64,000 nt of DNA, from assembly GCF_018394335.1 (NCBI RefSeq), contig NZ_CP074572.1, forward strand, positions 434,001 through 498,000, given 5' to 3'. Under the pieces are notes generated by a model. It had not been told where the DNA came from and searched no databases. It worked only from the letters and a program-made list of their open reading frames with translations. This stretch comes from Shewanella dokdonensis (GTDB taxonomy: Bacteria; Pseudomonadota; Gammaproteobacteria; Enterobacterales; Shewanellaceae). This document shows, one piece after another, positions 2,728-26,816 of the stretch. The position numbers and the translations under genes are program-made. Positions within the stretch are counted from its first letter, which is position 1. Every line of letters begins with the position of its first letter.

Positions 2728-4641
2728 TTATTTCAAGCTGTCCAACAGCATCTTGTTGACCAAACCAACGAAAGCGGAAGGATCTGACAAACTGCCTTTT
2801 TCCGACAGCATTGATTGTTGCAGCAATAGATTGCTCCAATCGGCAAAAAGGTTTTCGTCCTGCTCGTCATTCAGACGTTTGACCAAAGGATGCGCCGGGT
2901 TGATTTCAAAAATCGGTTTTACTTCCGGCACAGGTTGACCGGCGGCCTGCATCAGTTTGATCATCTGGGTCGACATTTCACCTTCGCCAACCACTACACA
3001 AGCAGGTGTATCGGTTAGACGAGTGGTAATGCGCACTTCCGTCACCTTGTCACCCAAGGCATCCTTGATACGTTTTACCAGACTTTCAGACTCAGTTGCT
3101 AACTTTTCCTTTTCAGCTTTTTCTTCAGCGTCTTCCAGCTCACCCAGTTCCAGATCGCCCCGGGTCACAGAATGCAGCTGTTTACCTTTATATTCATTGA
3201 GATGATTGATCAACCACTCGTCAATACGGTCAGACAACAGCAGTACTTCTACGCCTTTCTTACGCAATTGCTCCAGATGTGGGCTGTGGGCGGCGGCTTC
3301 GTAGCTGTCAGCCACGATATAGTAAATGTGTTGCTGCCCTTCTTTCATACGCTCAATGTAGGCATCCAACGACACATCTTGCGTAGCATTGTCATTGTGG
3401 GTCGAAGCAAAGCGCAGCAGGCCCGCAATACGTTCTTTATTGCTCCAGTCTTCGGCTGGGCCTTCTTTCAACACTTGGCCGAACTCAGTCCAAAACTGCT
3501 GATATTTTTCGGCATCATCCTGCACCAGTTTTTCCAGCATACTGAGCACACGTTTGGTCAGCGCACTACGCAGTGCCTGAGTGACTTTGTTGTCCTGCAA
3601 AATTTCGCGGGAAACGTTCAGCGGTAAATCGTTAGAATCGATCAAGCCTTTTACGAAACGCAGGTAAGACGGCATAAACTGTTCAGCATCATCCATGATG
3701 AATACCCGCTGTACAAACAGTTTCAGACCGTGTTTGTAGTCACGATTCCATAAATCCCAAGGCGCTTTGGCGGGGATATACAACAGACTGGTGTATTCCT
3801 GTTTGCCTTCCACCCGATTATGGCTCCACAGCAGTGGTTCACTAAAATCATGGGAAATATGTTTGTAAAACTCTTGATACTCTTCGTCGGTGATATCGGA
3901 TTTGTTGCGGTTCCACAGTGCGGTGGCTTTATTCATCACCTGCCAGTGACCTTCAGTGGCCTCAATTTTCTCGCCATCTGGGCCATCGTGCTCAGCGGTA
4001 CCTTCTTGCCACATTTCGACCGGGATAGAGATATGATCTGAGTATTTGGTGATGATGGATTTCAGACGCCAATCATCGGCAAACTCTTTTTCATCTTCAC
4101 GCAGATAAAGGGTAATTTCGGTGCCACGGTTTTGTTTAACAATGTTTTCAACGGTAAAGCTGCCTTCACCGTTAGATTCCCACTGCACCGCATCTTCTGG
4201 TTTGGCACCCGCCGCACGAGTGCGAACGGTAACCTTATCGGCCACGATAAAGGCGGAATAAAAACCCACACCAAACTGACCGATAAGCTGCGAGTCTTTG
4301 GCAGCATCGCCAGACAGGTTTTTGAAGAACTCTGCGGTACCAGACTTAGCAATGGTGCCCAGATGTTCAACCACACTCTCACGGGTCATACCGATCCCGT
4401 TATCGTCAATGGTCACTGTGCCTTTGTCTTTATCGGTGGTGATGCGCACTCGTAGTTCGCCATCGCCTTCGTACAGTGAATCATCTGTCAACGCCAGATA
4501 ACGCAGCTTATCAGCAGCATCTGCGGCGTTTGACACCAGTTCACGCAAGAAAATCTCTTTGTTGGAGTACAAAGAGTGGATCATCAAATGCAAAAGCTGT
4601 TTCACTTCAGCTTGAAAACCAAGAGTTTCTTGTTGTGACAT
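2728..4641 (-). CDS. htpG: Hsp90 chaperone HtpG
   Basis: Cytosolic ATP-dependent Hsp90. At 637 residues it is full length. The N-terminal GHKL ATPase domain shows [18 protein letters not shown] and [11 protein letters not shown]; the middle domain ([18 protein letters not shown]) and C-terminal dimerisation domain follow. AAGGA lies eight bases before the ATG. A sigma-32-type promoter is visible upstream and a terminator follows the stop, so this is probably a single-gene heat-shock transcript. Confidence 0.98.
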
Positions 4642-21390: not shown

Positions 21391-22059
21391 ATGATACTGC
21401 TTGTTGGCGGCGAAAAAGGTGGCAGCGGCAAAAGCTGCCTTGCGCAAAATCTTGCGGTACACATTACCCAGAAGTTCAACGCCAACGTGTTGATGGTCGA
21501 TTGTGACCCACAAAGAACCACATCTGATTGGATCCAAGCCCGTAATAACGATACCTCACTGCCCGCGATTAACTGCATTCAGCTATATGGCAAAATACGT
21601 AACGACCTGCTGAGCCTTGATGAACGTTTTGATTACGTGATCGTCGATTGCGGTGGGCAAGACAATCTAGCGATGCGGGCGGCGATGTCGGTAGCAACCT
21701 ATGTCGTGATCCCGCTGCGGCCCAAACGTCGCGATTTAAAAACGCTGCCCCATATGGAAGACATGCTGAGTACCTGTAAAATGGTCAATCCCAAAATGGT
21801 CGCGACTATCGTGCTGACACAATGCCCAGCACTGCCCACTCAGGGCAAACGTATTCTTGAGGCAAAGGAGGTGGTGACCTCTTTCGGACTGCGGGTGCTC
21901 AATGCGGTAACTTTTAGTCGCAACATATACGACGACAGTGAGGAAAAAGGCTCGTCGGTCATCGAATTAGAGCCGGATGGCAAAGCAGCGGAAGAGATCC
22001 GCGCAATTGCGGATGAACTGCTGGCCATTCCGCCGGAAAACTCTTATGAGCTTAACTGA
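21391..22059 (+). CDS. ParA/MinD-type ATPase (orphan partition-like)
   Basis: A 222-residue ATPase with a deviant Walker A motif GGEKGGSGKSCLAQNLA at the N-terminus, VDCDPQRTTSDW and a Walker B-like YVIVDCGGQDN. The lack of an N-terminal DNA-binding domain is typical of small plasmid-type (Ib) ParA. It overlaps the next gene by 14 bases, suggesting translational coupling. No plasmid replication gene is near, so its cargo is unknown. Confidence 0.85.
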   Translation: MILLVGGEKGGSGKSCLAQNLAVHITQKFNANVLMVDCDPQRTTSDWIQARNNDTSLPAINCIQLYGKIRNDLLSLDERFDYVIVDCGGQDNLAMRAAMSVATYVVIPLRPKRRDLKTLPHMEDMLSTCKMVNPKMVATIVLTQCPALPTQGKRILEAKEVVTSFGLRVLNAVTFSRNIYDDSEEKGSSVIELEPDGKAAEEIRAIADELLAIPPENSYELN

Positions 22060-22393: not shown

Positions 22394-22636
22394 TCAATGA
22401 TTGCAGATCAGGCTGGCATCCGTGGTAATGCCTTGGCTGCGATCAATAAATTTACCTTTCAGTGCCAGAAAGTGGATCAATGCTTCGGCGTCCATATCAC
22501 TGGCACTACAGGTATGGAAACGAGCATTGGCCCCAAAACGCTGTGACATCTGTAACAGCAACTCGCTTTTACTTAATCCTTGAGGATATTCCAGCAACAG
22601 TTGCAGCACTTCATGACCATGAACTGAGTCACTCAT
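22394..22636 (-). CDS. yecH: YecH-like DUF2492 protein
   Basis: An 80-residue protein with HGHEVLQLLLE, RFGANARFHTCSASDMDAEALIHFLALKGKF-type sequence (shown in part) and a C-terminal Cys/His tail (ASLICNH). The His and Cys residues suggest metal binding. Role unknown. GGAG precedes the ATG. It is convergent with the RHH gene and divergent from btsS. Confidence 0.78.
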   Translation of the reverse strand: MSDSVHGHEVLQLLLEYPQGLSKSELLLQMSQRFGANARFHTCSASDMDAEALIHFLALKGKFIDRSQGITTDASLICNH

Positions 22637-22781
22637 TATTTACTCCATAAAACGCATTAAAAATATAGCTTATATTGGTTTTATGCTGGTTTCACTGATT
22701 TAGCGCAATAACGCTGGCAATATATAATTCCCCTCCGCAATATGGGAAAATCGCCAAGTCCGTTAACTTAGCAGGTTTGCA

Positions 22782-24449
22782 ATGTCACTGATCCTCGCCT
22801 TGACGCAACAGATGTGTCTGTATTTGGTAATTGTCTACCTCACCAGCAAGACGCCGTTGTTTAAGTTATTTACTGAAAACTCTACGCGTTTACCTCATAA
22901 GATATTTATCTATCTAGTTTTTTCAGCTTTCTGCGTCATGGCCACTTACTTCGGCGAACAAACCCACGGCGCTATTGCCAACACTCGCGCAATGGGAGCG
23001 GTGCTGGGCGGGCTGTTAGGTGGCCCCGCCACCGGATTTTTGGTAGGACTCACAGGAGGGCTGCATCGCTATACGCTTGGTGGCTTTACCGATATTGCCT
23101 GTGCGGTGTCAACCACCATGGAAGGCCTGAGCGCGGGCATGATCAACTTGTATCTGCGGCGACATGGGAAAAGCGAACTGGTATTTAATCCCATGTTGGT
23201 GGGCTTAGTGACCTTTTATGCCGAAATGATGCAGATGTGTATTATTCTGATGATTGCCAATCCTTTTGAAGAAGCCTTGGATCTGGTACGGCAGATTGCG
23301 CCGCCAATGTTGATTGTCAACTCGCTGGGCGCGGCATCATTTATGAGTATGGTGCGAGACCAAAAGACAATGTTCGACAAGCTGTCATCCACTTTTTCCA
23401 CTAAAGCGTTAAAAATTGCCGAACGCAGTGTGGGCTTGCTGAGTAAAGGGTTCAATGAAACAACCAGCACCCAAGTAGCACAGATTGTCATCGAAGAAAC
23501 CAATGTTGGTGCCGTAGCCATCACCGACCGGGAAAAACTCATGGCCTTTATCGGTATCGGTGCCGATCATCATTTGCCCGGCACGCCGATATCGTCACAA
23601 ATCACCATGGATGCGATTCATCAAAACAAAGTGATGTTTGCTGACGGAGTGGAGTTCCCCTACTCCTGTTCTATCTCCCCGAATTGTAAGTTGGGTTCAA
23701 GTTTGGTGATCCCACTACGCAGCGACAATGAGGTTATTGGCACCATCAAGTTGTACGAGCAAAAAAACAAACTGTTTCTCAACATCAACCGTACGTTGGG
23801 AGAAGGGATCGCCCGCTTGTTGTCGAACCAGATCCTCTATGGCCGTTTTGAACAACAGCAGAACCTGCTGACCCAGGCGGAACTCAAGCTGCTGCAAGCA
23901 CAAGTAAATCCGCACTTTCTATTCAATGCACTGAATACCATCAGTGCCATAATTCGGCGTAACCCTGATAAAGCCCGGCAGTTATTGCAGCAACTCAGTC
24001 AATTTTTGCGGATCAACCTCAAACGAACCACCGGCATGGTCAGCCTGGGCGATGAGCTGGAACATATCGAATCTTACCTGACTATCGAAAAAGCGCGCTT
24101 TATCGACAAGCTCAATGTCAGCATCGATATTCCGCAAGCACTGTATTCCGTGCAGGTTCCAGCTTTTACCTTACAGCCAATTATTGAAAACGCCGTAAAA
24201 CATGGCACTTCGCACATGATGGAAACCGGAATTATTGAGGTCAAGGCGATACAACAAGAACAAGATCTTATACTGGAAGTTACTGACAATGCGGGCTTAT
24301 ACCAACCCAGAACAGATTCTGATGGCTTAGGAATGAATCTAGTGCACAAACGTATCCAAAACCTATACGGTGAGGAATACGGGGTAACCGTTGAATATGA
24401 ACCCGAAGTATTTACCAAAGTTAAAATCCGTTTACCTAACAAGGTTTGA
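22782..24449 (+). CDS. btsS: LytS/BtsS-family sensor histidine kinase
   Basis: Membrane sensor of 555 residues: a 5TM-LYT sensor region (about 1-200; GAVLGGLLGGPATGFLVGLTGG), a GAF-like domain (about 220-360) and a kinase of the His_kinase family (QVNPHFLFNALNTISAIIRR with the phosphorylated His at about 380; IIENAVKHG). In E. coli BtsS binds pyruvate with high affinity. Here the next gene is its regulator and the one after a CstA-type pyruvate transporter, which supports the same role. Confidence 0.88.
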   Translation: MSLILALTQQMCLYLVIVYLTSKTPLFKLFTENSTRLPHKIFIYLVFSAFCVMATYFGEQTHGAIANTRAMGAVLGGLLGGPATGFLVGLTGGLHRYTLGGFTDIACAVSTTMEGLSAGMINLYLRRHGKSELVFNPMLVGLVTFYAEMMQMCIILMIANPFEEALDLVRQIAPPMLIVNSLGAASFMSMVRDQKTMFDKLSSTFSTKALKIAERSVGLLSKGFNETTSTQVAQIVIEETNVGAVAITDREKLMAFIGIGADHHLPGTPISSQITMDAIHQNKVMFADGVEFPYSCSISPNCKLGSSLVIPLRSDNEVIGTIKLYEQKNKLFLNINRTLGEGIARLLSNQILYGRFEQQQNLLTQAELKLLQAQVNPHFLFNALNTISAIIRRNPDKARQLLQQLSQFLRINLKRTTGMVSLGDELEHIESYLTIEKARFIDKLNVSIDIPQALYSVQVPAFTLQPIIENAVKHGTSHMMETGIIEVKAIQQEQDLILEVTDNAGLYQPRTDSDGLGMNLVHKRIQNLYGEEYGVTVEYEPEVFTKVKIRLPNKV

Positions 24450-24451
24450 AC

Positions 24452-25162
24452 ATGATTAGCTGCTTGATTGTGGATGATGAGCCCTATGCCAGACAAGAAC
24501 TGGCTGATTTGCTACTTCAGGCTGGCGATCTGGAAATCGTCGGCCAATGCAGCAATGCCCTAGAGGCGATGCAGGCTATCAGCAAGCATAAGCCAGATCT
24601 GTTGTTTCTGGATATTCAGATGCCGCGGATAAGCGGTATGGAACTGATCGCCATGCTGAACCCAGAAGAGATGCCGCGAGTGGTGTTTGTGACCGCCTAC
24701 GATGAGTTTGCTGTGCGTGCCTTTGATAATCATGCTTTTGATTACCTGCTTAAGCCGCTCGACGAAAAACGCCTCAAGCAGACGCTGGAAAAAGTGCGGC
24801 GGGATTTACGCCCTAGAGCACTGGATGTGCTGTTACCACAATATCTGGAACATCTGCCCTGTTTCAGCGCAAACCGCCTAAAAATTATCGCGGTCAAGGA
24901 TGTTGAATACGTGTTCAGTGACCTTGGCGGTATCCACGTAGCCACAGCAAAGGAGAAAGTACATACCGAACTCACACTGAAAGTGCTGGAAGAGAAAACT
25001 CCGCTGTTACGCTGTCATCGGCAGTATCTGGTTGCGCCATCAGCAATTGCTGAGATAGAAGTATTAGAAGCTGGCGCCGAAGTGACCACGCACAGTGGTG
25101 CCAAAGTCCCAGTTTCTAGGCGTTTCCTTAAACCATTGAAACAAGCATTTGGTTTCCAGTAA
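24452..25162 (+). CDS. btsR: LytTR-family response regulator BtsR
   Basis: A receiver domain (LIVDDEPYARQ, FLDIQMPRISG with the phosphoryl-accepting Asp at about 54, KPLDEKRL) is followed by a LytTR DNA-binding domain (about 140-236; DVEYVFSDLGGIHVAT, LLRCHRQYLV). AAGG lies seven bases before the ATG. It overlaps the btsS end closely. Its probable operator is the repeat array directly downstream. Confidence 0.9.
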   Translation: MISCLIVDDEPYARQELADLLLQAGDLEIVGQCSNALEAMQAISKHKPDLLFLDIQMPRISGMELIAMLNPEEMPRVVFVTAYDEFAVRAFDNHAFDYLLKPLDEKRLKQTLEKVRRDLRPRALDVLLPQYLEHLPCFSANRLKIIAVKDVEYVFSDLGGIHVATAKEKVHTELTLKVLEEKTPLLRCHRQYLVAPSAIAEIEVLEAGAEVTTHSGAKVPVSRRFLKPLKQAFGFQ

Positions 25163-25169
25163 CGGCGTA

Positions 25170-25299
25170 ACCTCGGTATGTATCCCTAAACCCCTGACAC
25201 GGATTTTCAACCGCTAAGTTGGATTATCTGACCGTTAAGCTACCACCCAAACCGCTCATCTGTATCAGTAACCGCTCAACCATCGCTTTTGACCGCTGA
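25170..25299 (+). promoter_or_regulatory. Six- to seven-copy BtsR-like operator array
   Basis: Direct repeats of ACCGCTCA or close variants start at 25190 (ACCCCTGA), 25210 (ACCGCTAA), 25231 (ACCGTTAA), 25251 and 25271 (both ACCGCTCA) and 25292 (ACCGCTGA), with a weak seventh at 25170 (ACCTCGGT). Spacing is 20 or 21 bases, about two DNA turns, so all face the same side. The known E. coli BtsR/YehT site is a pair of ACC[G/A]CT[C/T]A repeats about 21 bases apart. Confidence 0.8.
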
Positions 25300-25342
25300 C
25301 TCAAACTCAACTTGGCGTTGTTACGCAATTGTTTACACTTGC

Positions 25343-25348
25343 TACGAT
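25343..25348 (+). promoter_or_regulatory. Likely -10 box of the pyruvate-transporter promoter
   Basis: TACGAT lies 23 bases before the start codon, with no good -35 at the right distance. That is what an activator-dependent promoter would look like. Confidence 0.4.
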
Positions 25349-25370
25349 TCTAATTGGGGGAGACAAACCT

Positions 25371-26816
25371 ATGTTGTGGTTCCTACTGTGCGTCGGTCTG
25401 CTGATCGGCGGCTACTTTATATACGGTACCTTCGTGGAGAAGGTATTTGGCATTAACAAACAGCGCCAAACCCCGGCTTATGCCCAAAATGACGGTGTTG
25501 ATTATGTCCCAATGTCAAAAGGCAAAGTTTACCTGATCCAGCTGCTTAACATCGCTGGTGTGGGTCCAATCTTTGGTCCTATCTTGGGGGCACTATACGG
25601 CCCAGCGGCTATGTTGTGGATTGTTATCGGCTGTATTTTCGCAGGTGCGGTACACGACTACTTCTCCGGTATGTTGTCTGTCCGTAACAACGGCCAGTCT
25701 GTACCCAACTTGGCGGGCAAATATCTCGGTAAAAACGCCAAAAACTTCATGAACATTTTCGCACTGGTACTGTTGCTGCTGGTAGGCGTTGTGTTCATCT
25801 CTGCTCCTGCTGGCCTGTTAGGTAAACTGACTGGCTGGAGCGTCAGCATGTTCGTTGGCGTCATTTTCGTGTACTACCTGATCGCCACCATCGTCCCGAT
25901 TGACAAGATCATTGGTCGCCTGTATCCCTTCTTTGGTGCCCTACTGATGTTCATGTCCGTAGGTCTGACAATTGCGATTATTGTCTCTGACCAGCACACA
26001 CTGCTAGCCGGTTTCGGTCCTGGCGACTTCCTGCAAAACCTGAACCCGAAAGACGCGCCACTGTGGCCGGCACTGTTCATCACCATCGCTTGTGGTGCGG
26101 TATCTGGTTTCCACGCAACTCAGTCACCACTGATGGCACGCTGTGTTGAAAACGAATCCAACGGCCGTTTTGTGTTCTACGGTGCCATGATTGGTGAAGG
26201 TATTATTGCGTTGATTTGGTGTGCTATCGCCCTGTCATTCTTTGATGGCGTTCAGGGGCTGAGCGATGCCATGGCAGGCAACCCTGCCAACGTTGTGTAT
26301 GGTGCATCTACCGGGCTGTTGGGCGCTGTTGGTGGTTTCCTGGCGGTACTGGGCGTTATTATTCTGCCTATCACCTCTGGTGACACAGCATTCCGCGCAG
26401 CACGTCTGATCCTGGCCGAATACTTCGGTATGCCACAGACCAAGATCTCCAAACGTCTAGTACTGGCTATCCCACTGTTCATATTGGGTGCCATTCTGAC
26501 TCAGGTCGACTTTGGGGTTATCTGGCGCTACTTCGGTGTGGCTAACCAAGCTACCGCCGTGATGATGTTATGGACAGCCTCAGCGTATCTGCTCCGTCAC
26601 AACAAACTGCACTGGATCTGTACCATTCCAGCCATGTTCATGACCGACGTAGTGATCAGTTTCCTGCTGAACTCCAACACCCTAGGCGCTGGGCTGCCAA
26701 TGACAGTTTCCACCATTGCCGGGACTATCATGACAGTGTTAATCACCGGACTGGTGATCTACATTGGTAAAGGCAAGGCGCAGGAACTGGCGGCAACTGA
26801 AGCCGAAGAAGTTTAA
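25371..26816 (+). CDS. btsT: CstA-family pyruvate/peptide transporter (short form, BtsT-like)
   Basis: Inner-membrane carbon-starvation family transporter with many membrane spans. The core motifs LNIAGVGPIFGPILGALYG, FSGMLSVRNNG and GFHATQSPLMARC are clear. Length is 481 residues against about 700 for E. coli CstA and BtsT, so this is a short branch of the family. I chose the ATG at 25371 with GGGGGAG upstream. The position behind btsSR argues for pyruvate uptake rather than peptide uptake; this is inference. Confidence 0.85.
   Translation: MLWFLLCVGLLIGGYFIYGTFVEKVFGINKQRQTPAYAQNDGVDYVPMSKGKVYLIQLLNIAGVGPIFGPILGALYGPAAMLWIVIGCIFAGAVHDYFSGMLSVRNNGQSVPNLAGKYLGKNAKNFMNIFALVLLLLVGVVFISAPAGLLGKLTGWSVSMFVGVIFVYYLIATIVPIDKIIGRLYPFFGALLMFMSVGLTIAIIVSDQHTLLAGFGPGDFLQNLNPKDAPLWPALFITIACGAVSGFHATQSPLMARCVENESNGRFVFYGAMIGEGIIALIWCAIALSFFDGVQGLSDAMAGNPANVVYGASTGLLGAVGGFLAVLGVIILPITSGDTAFRAARLILAEYFGMPQTKISKRLVLAIPLFILGAILTQVDFGVIWRYFGVANQATAVMMLWTASAYLLRHNKLHWICTIPAMFMTDVVISFLLNSNTLGAGLPMTVSTIAGTIMTVLITGLVIYIGKGKAQELAATEAEEV

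Follow-up and report, generated by a model that had tools for sequence, protein, structure and literature searches.

The window, by which we mean the whole 64-kb stretch of Shewanella dokdonensis DNA analysed here, carries the genes of a BtsS/BtsR-type two-component system followed by that of a transporter, its presumed target:

22782..24449, + strand: btsS-type LytS sensor kinase gene (Pfam 5TM-5TMR_LYT and His_kinase domains)
24452..25162, + strand: btsR, LytTR-type response regulator gene (NCBIfam NF008677 BtsR, 359.5 bits against a cut-off of 246)
25371..26816, + strand: gene of a short, btsT-like CstA-family transporter (Pfam CstA PF02554, 204.7 bits against a cut-off of 27)

The sensor is identical to E. 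coli BtsS in 322 of 561 alignment columns and has the 5TM-5TMR_LYT, GAF and kinase modules of a BtsS sensor; scores with the three GAF models are close to the cut-offs, one exceeding it. It keeps residues R72, R99, C110, S113 and H382 of the E. coli protein and has a serine in place of R192; the first four, and thus the complete pocket, make up the pyruvate site that PMC10653868, as far as accessible, reports for E. coli BtsS. The btsR product combines Pfam Response_reg and LytTR domains, and its score with the NCBIfam family model bears out the identification as BtsR made in the first-pass annotation. The transporter has the CstA domain of BtsT/CstA proteins in a short form of 481 amino acids, which reaches 108.2 bits with the NCBIfam equivalog model for CstA (pyruvate/proton symporter), below the cut-off of 1188, and shares about 29% identity with E. 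coli BtsT across the aligned part. With an identity this low and a score so far under that cut-off, it is the gene neighbourhood that suggests pyruvate as the substrate. Near btsS, a ParA-like ATPase is encoded at 21391-22059 (142 bits, under the ParA partition cut-off of 180), with a small gene behind it.

Between the stop codon of btsR (25162) and the ATG of the CstA-family gene (25371) there is an array of BtsR-type octamers, five clear and one degenerate, whose starts are separated by steps of 20, 21, 20, 20 and 21 bp:

25190..25197, + strand: register 5 unit, degenerate, ACCCCTGA, matrix score 3.9 (under threshold)
25210..25217, + strand: register 4 unit, ACCGCTAA, matrix score 11.4
25231..25238, + strand: register 3 unit, ACCGTTAA, matrix score 7.3
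25251..25258, + strand: register 2 unit, ACCGCTCA, matrix score 13.6
25271..25278, + strand: register 1 unit, ACCGCTCA, matrix score 13.6
25292..25299, + strand: register 0, promoter-proximal unit, ACCGCTGA, matrix score 12.2, start 42 bp before the probable -10

The scores come from an octamer matrix with a maximum of 13.6 and a threshold of 6 that was our own choice. Its training set, 241 octamers taken at 82 Shewanella loci, excludes the window, S. fodinae and a further genome (G005); an octamer was admitted if it differed from ACCGCTCA at no more than two positions and had a neighbour at 20 or 21 bp. An array longer than a pair had been described at this very place, between btsR and the CstA-family gene, and both its length beyond a pair and its position hold. 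The count of six or seven repeats holds for the five clear octamers and the degenerate one at 25190, but the weak seventh octamer claimed at 25170 (ACCTCGGT) scores -8.4, and no unit is found at the same position in S. fodinae either.

The array is real and contains five clear units. A matrix scan found no other chain of at least three units on either strand of the 64-kb window and not even a chain of two on its reversed + strand, and three units occurred in none (0/17000) of the Markov-shuffled intergenic sequences. The pattern ACCGNTNA-N12/13-ACCGNTNA matches seven times in the 4.13-Mb genome, four times as consecutive pairs of this array; the remaining three isolated pairs are no excess over the five matches of a reversed-pattern control, and so give no sign of further BtsR targets in this genome. 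In five relatives, scanned with another pattern, off-array and control matches numbered 4 and 0 in S. fodinae (G037), 3 and 3 in G005, 0 and 3 in G276, 1 and 2 in G136, and 0 and 0 in G462; S. fodinae may thus have further targets. No units were found before btsS (within about 22600-22790), and Tandem Repeats Finder did not detect the array. With at least two ACCRCTYA-like direct repeats (a motif taken to be that of BtsR) upstream of a CstA-family gene, set apart by spacers of 12-13 bp, the array qualifies as a putative BtsR operator; its five clear units and one degenerate unit set it apart from a LytTR pair operator of exactly two repeats.

For the genus, we drew 117 Shewanella genomes and counted arrays in the 85 with BtsR at E 1e-40. 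A CstA gene lies behind btsR at 84 of these 85 loci, and the contig ends at the remaining one. Alignment of relatives, the check proposed in the first-pass annotation, showed both the octamers and their spacing to be conserved. Chains of one, two, three, four, five and six units occur at 6, 16, 56, 3, 3 and 1 of the 85 loci, respectively, and of 87 Shewanella loci, 64 have at least three units in register by the matrix; apart from the three left-out loci, these counts are not independent of a matrix trained on octamers resembling ACCGCTCA with this spacing. Of 79 steps nearest the promoter, 72 measure 21 bp, and 49 of the 63 steps preceding these measure 20 bp, which together with the chain lengths makes the usual Shewanella operator one of three units, 20 and then 21 bp apart. 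Alternative step pairs over 10-32 bp (10-19, 22-27 and 30-32) gave at most two units, and the double register of 40-42 bp up to three. Fewer than three units were counted by the matrix at 22 of the 85 loci, with a degenerate third visible by eye in some; since these operators presumably work, distal units appear to be dispensable. One locus with two clear units (L051, in genome G028) has a btsR match with an in-frame TAA and is possibly a decaying system.

Five or six units were found in the window, in S. fodinae and in G005, which together with the locus L015 form one clade (SH-aLRT 100 in a quick tree). Seven further loci have an extra upstream pair that resumes after a 43-bp step, i.e., two registers. 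Across the tree, the distribution of arrays with at least five in-register units takes at least six changes.

Beyond the genus, 174 genomes of the order have a CstA match at E 1e-120, from which 93 loci were chosen, non-randomly, down the list and across families; one (L255) was dropped for having no CstA match, leaving 92 cstA-like loci, two of them from Shewanella. With the same matrix, at least three units were found at 65 of the 90 non-Shewanella loci, and in none of 4600 shuffles. The 31 f21 loci, taken as Vibrionaceae, have three units in 14 cases, four in 10, five in 5, and six and nine in one each. Three units are present at 16 of 19 loci in f11 and at 8 of 10 in f9, where one more locus has four; f25 (11 loci) and f15 (4 loci) have two, and the matrix finds none in f3 (2 loci) or f8 (1 locus). 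Taken together with Shewanella, 129 of 177 loci have at least three units, 28 at least four and 11 at least five. No btsR is present in the 1.1-kb pieces that represent the 31 f21 loci; four named Vibrionaceae stretches do contain it. Outside the order, Marinobacter nauticus (L187) has nine in-register units upstream of a CstA gene at 4129 and next to its own btsR (60% identical). Arrays of four to nine units are found in Vibrionaceae, in the window's Shewanella clade and in Marinobacter. A search of the class at a strict E of 1e-170 recovered the transporter in 2 of 274 genomes, one of them the window's own, and this rarity and the Marinobacter array may hint at transfer between orders.

A pattern scan for at least four units in the named genome collection returned 47 stretches, and a CstA or BtsT homologue is encoded in 11 of them; these 11 and two more were inspected. 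The strict triple pattern was found in 17 of 394 genomes of the order and misses many arrays found by the matrix, hence our use of the matrix for all counts. Three of the 17 are heptamer microsatellites with the core ACCGCT (ACCGCTG, ACCGCTT, ACCGCTA) at L093 (G277), L103 (G041) and L100 (G008), which match the array pattern because three heptamers make 21 bp; Oceanisphaera pacifica (L181) has the same microsatellite stretch as L093. Since BtsR is absent from G041 and G008 at E 1e-40, a link between these microsatellites and BtsR is doubtful. At the end of a Vibrio owensii contig (L179), many in-register octamers can be seen by eye on the reverse strand, in a piece without CstA that was left uncounted.

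According to a 2012 paper, E. coli BtsR reportedly binds a pair of repeats, and the first-pass annotation spoke of a single pair. The pair is present in the E. coli btsT promoter, as ACCGCTTA-N13-ACCACTCA, but GCCGCTCA lies 20 bp before it as a third in-register unit, so that the single pair looks like an undercount. Our enterobacterial set consisted of 30 genomes with a match: a btsT orthologue was recovered from 23, and from the other 7 only a paralogue of the cstA type. At least three units precede btsT in 21 of 24 promoters (the 23 genomes, of 23 genera, and E. coli K-12), and none of the seven paralogues has two or more units upstream; as predicted binding sites, three units are the norm. 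The SPR oligonucleotide named 'yjiY YehT bs' in the accessible text of PMC4847170 contains all three E. coli units. In PMC5552118, BtsR motifs are deduced for several genera, and their absence from Serratia marcescens and Aeromonas hydrophila is reported.

The promoter-proximal unit stands at a nearly fixed distance from a -10-like hexamer. In the window, two promoter elements can be proposed:

25312..25317, + strand: possible weak -35 hexamer TTGGCG, read from the sequence, 16 bp before the -10
25334..25339, + strand: probable -10 hexamer TACACT, at offset 42 from the proximal unit, the best -10 offset among 80 Shewanella loci

An alternative -10 hexamer, TACGAT, starts 9 bp downstream of the start of TACACT; each matches at 4 of 6 positions, and a consensus promoter scan of this region found no promoter. 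At offset 42, at least 4 of 6 positions match a -10 in 82% of the 80 Shewanella loci, and at offset 43 this is so in 97% of the 31 f21 (Vibrionaceae) loci and 90% of the 10 f9 loci. Six groups have at least five loci. Counted from where the proximal unit starts, the best distance to a -10-like hexamer is 42 bp for three of them (Shewanella, f25g26 and f11) and 43 bp for two (f21 and f9); the sixth, f25g35, does not have this offset. In the Enterobacteriaceae the best offset is 43 bp and the signal is weaker (a mean of 3.09 of 6 matches). This geometry suggests an activator-dependent promoter with a class-II-like layout. A CRP site in 25100-25371 was rejected, the best candidate having 3 mismatches out of 10.

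It had also been proposed that all units lie on one face of the helix. This applies to neighbouring units, but not to the array as a whole: the 102 bp from first to last unit correspond to 9.71 turns at 10.5 bp per turn, which places the two ends about 100 degrees out of phase. Each 20-bp step lags a 10.5-bp helix by about 34 degrees, and in the nine-unit f21 array, with eight 20-bp steps, the drift amounts to about 274 degrees. The whole array would thus face one side only if the bound DNA were overtwisted or curved.

We consider it probable that the array is an extended BtsR operator, a class-II-like activator platform with an evolvable number of units, to which BtsR is predicted to bind and from which it would activate transcription. 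The binding, cooperativity, activation and distal-unit effect that we infer would proceed as follows. Pyruvate sensed by BtsS would lead to activation of BtsR, and each octamer would take one BtsR LytTR domain, by analogy with YpdB, which occupies its repeats as monomers. The strong promoter-near units (25251, 25271 and 25292) would be occupied first, and the proximal unit would be placed so that the activator can contact RNA polymerase, the promoter having a poor -35, and turn on the CstA-family transporter. The distal units, 20-21 bp apart, would recruit more BtsR through contacts between neighbours, and less active BtsR would then be required. In this Shewanella clade, arrays would have grown beyond the usual three units, to five or six.

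What the additional units could contribute was explored with a nearest-neighbour equilibrium model in which the proximal one or two sites activate and all parameters are assumed. Without cooperativity, extra sites have no effect in the model. If the cooperativity factor is tenfold and two sites are required, half-activation is reached at 0.43 with two sites, 0.27 with three and 0.21 with six, while the slope is 1.50, 1.70 and 1.66, respectively; a hundredfold factor gives slopes of 1.79, 2.24 and 2.13. If the three distal sites of six are tenfold weaker, which may be the case in the window array, the slope becomes 2.46 with the hundredfold and 1.73 with the tenfold factor. The sharper response to pyruvate suggested in the first-pass annotation is hence doubtful: the slope reaches a plateau after about three or four equal units, and a gain (from 2.24 to 2.46) appears with weak distal units and strong cooperativity. 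Under these assumptions, extra units are expected chiefly to lower the threshold, with a modest sharpening at most.

This small gain past three or four equal units would also fit a different reading, in which only two or three promoter-proximal units function and the distal ones are neutral relics of an old duplication or of drift; three units are, moreover, the usual number, and register 5 is degenerate in the window. We compared registers 3-5 among the window, S. fodinae, G005 and G457. Octamer cores are identical at 15-17 of 18 positions and spacers at 8-21 of 36, with cores conserved above spacers in all six comparisons within the clade (one-sided Fisher p from 0.021 to 5.9e-6), in a test that is partly circular, since the registers are anchored on the units, and whose six pairs share four sequences and are not independent. 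The result is supportive of selection on the distal units, short of proof. Register 5 reads ACCACTTA in S. fodinae and GCCACTTG in G005; with a degenerate unit there in the window and a weak one in G005, the far end of the array may be decaying. The spacers differ from unit to unit, which argues against a recent tandem duplication, and long in-register arrays are also found in Vibrionaceae and Marinobacter. On balance, it seems unlikely that the distal units are without function.

Even less probable is that the distal units hold back scarce active BtsR as a sink, so that activation would be delayed or buffered instead of aided. A single BtsR target gene is described for E. coli in the accessible text of PMC5552118, and extra sites could in that case retain a large share of the molecules; a sink, however, would not need a strict 20-21 bp register running up to the promoter. 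Finally, it is very improbable that the repeats are due to another regulator, an RNA element or DNA curvature, considering that the octamers match the E. coli site region and adjoin btsR in Shewanella, that the seven enterobacterial cstA-type paralogues lack even a chain of two, and that Rfam gave no match up to E 0.1 in 24900-25600.

The extended operator could be taken further. BtsR might form a head-to-tail chain on arrays with anything from three to nine units, or more. With steps in long arrays mostly of 20 bp and not 21 bp, such a chain would wind around the helix and might curve or overtwist the DNA. Unit number would then be an evolvable dial for the pyruvate threshold, set independently in each of Shewanella, Vibrionaceae and Marinobacter; the two-site model of E. 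coli would need a third site. We offer this extension tentatively, as less likely than not.

The closest known system is the BtsR operator of E. coli btsT (yjiY), GCCGCTCA-N12-ACCGCTTA-N13-ACCACTCA, which shares with the window the octamer, the 20/21 bp register and the regulator family, but has three units instead of five or six, and btsSR and btsT are unlinked in E. coli. The YpdB operator of E. coli yhjX likewise combines a LytTR response regulator, a pyruvate signal and tandem direct repeats, but with two repeats of another motif; YpdB is reported to bind this tandem pair sequentially, A then B, and cooperatively (PMC4847170, as far as accessible). Three 8-bp direct repeats with 12-13 bp spacers are described for RcoM1, and repression by CoxC requires all three (PMC11347149); these triplets differ from the window array in motifs and signals, CoxC is a repressor, and longer arrays are not described in the accessible part of that paper. 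The sites of Streptomyces BldC differ in that they are bound by a MerR-like protein, with one-turn spacing and a fold other than LytTR. LytTR direct repeats and the RcoM and CoxC triplets were hence already known, and what appears to be new is the length and variability of the array. A literature search, with most subscription papers outside its reach, found no BtsR arrays of at least three units.

LytTR regulators have been described as binders of pairs, with triplets as exceptions. Judging from the arrays compared here, the number of units looks as though it has been adjusted by evolution, with three as the usual number and up to nine. Should arrays of three to nine units prove general for BtsR, the description of the E. 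coli site would be incomplete. Within a single, well-characterized pyruvate system, there would then be a natural series of promoters differing in unit number, in which the effect of extra activator sites on threshold, slope, maximum and timing would be directly testable.
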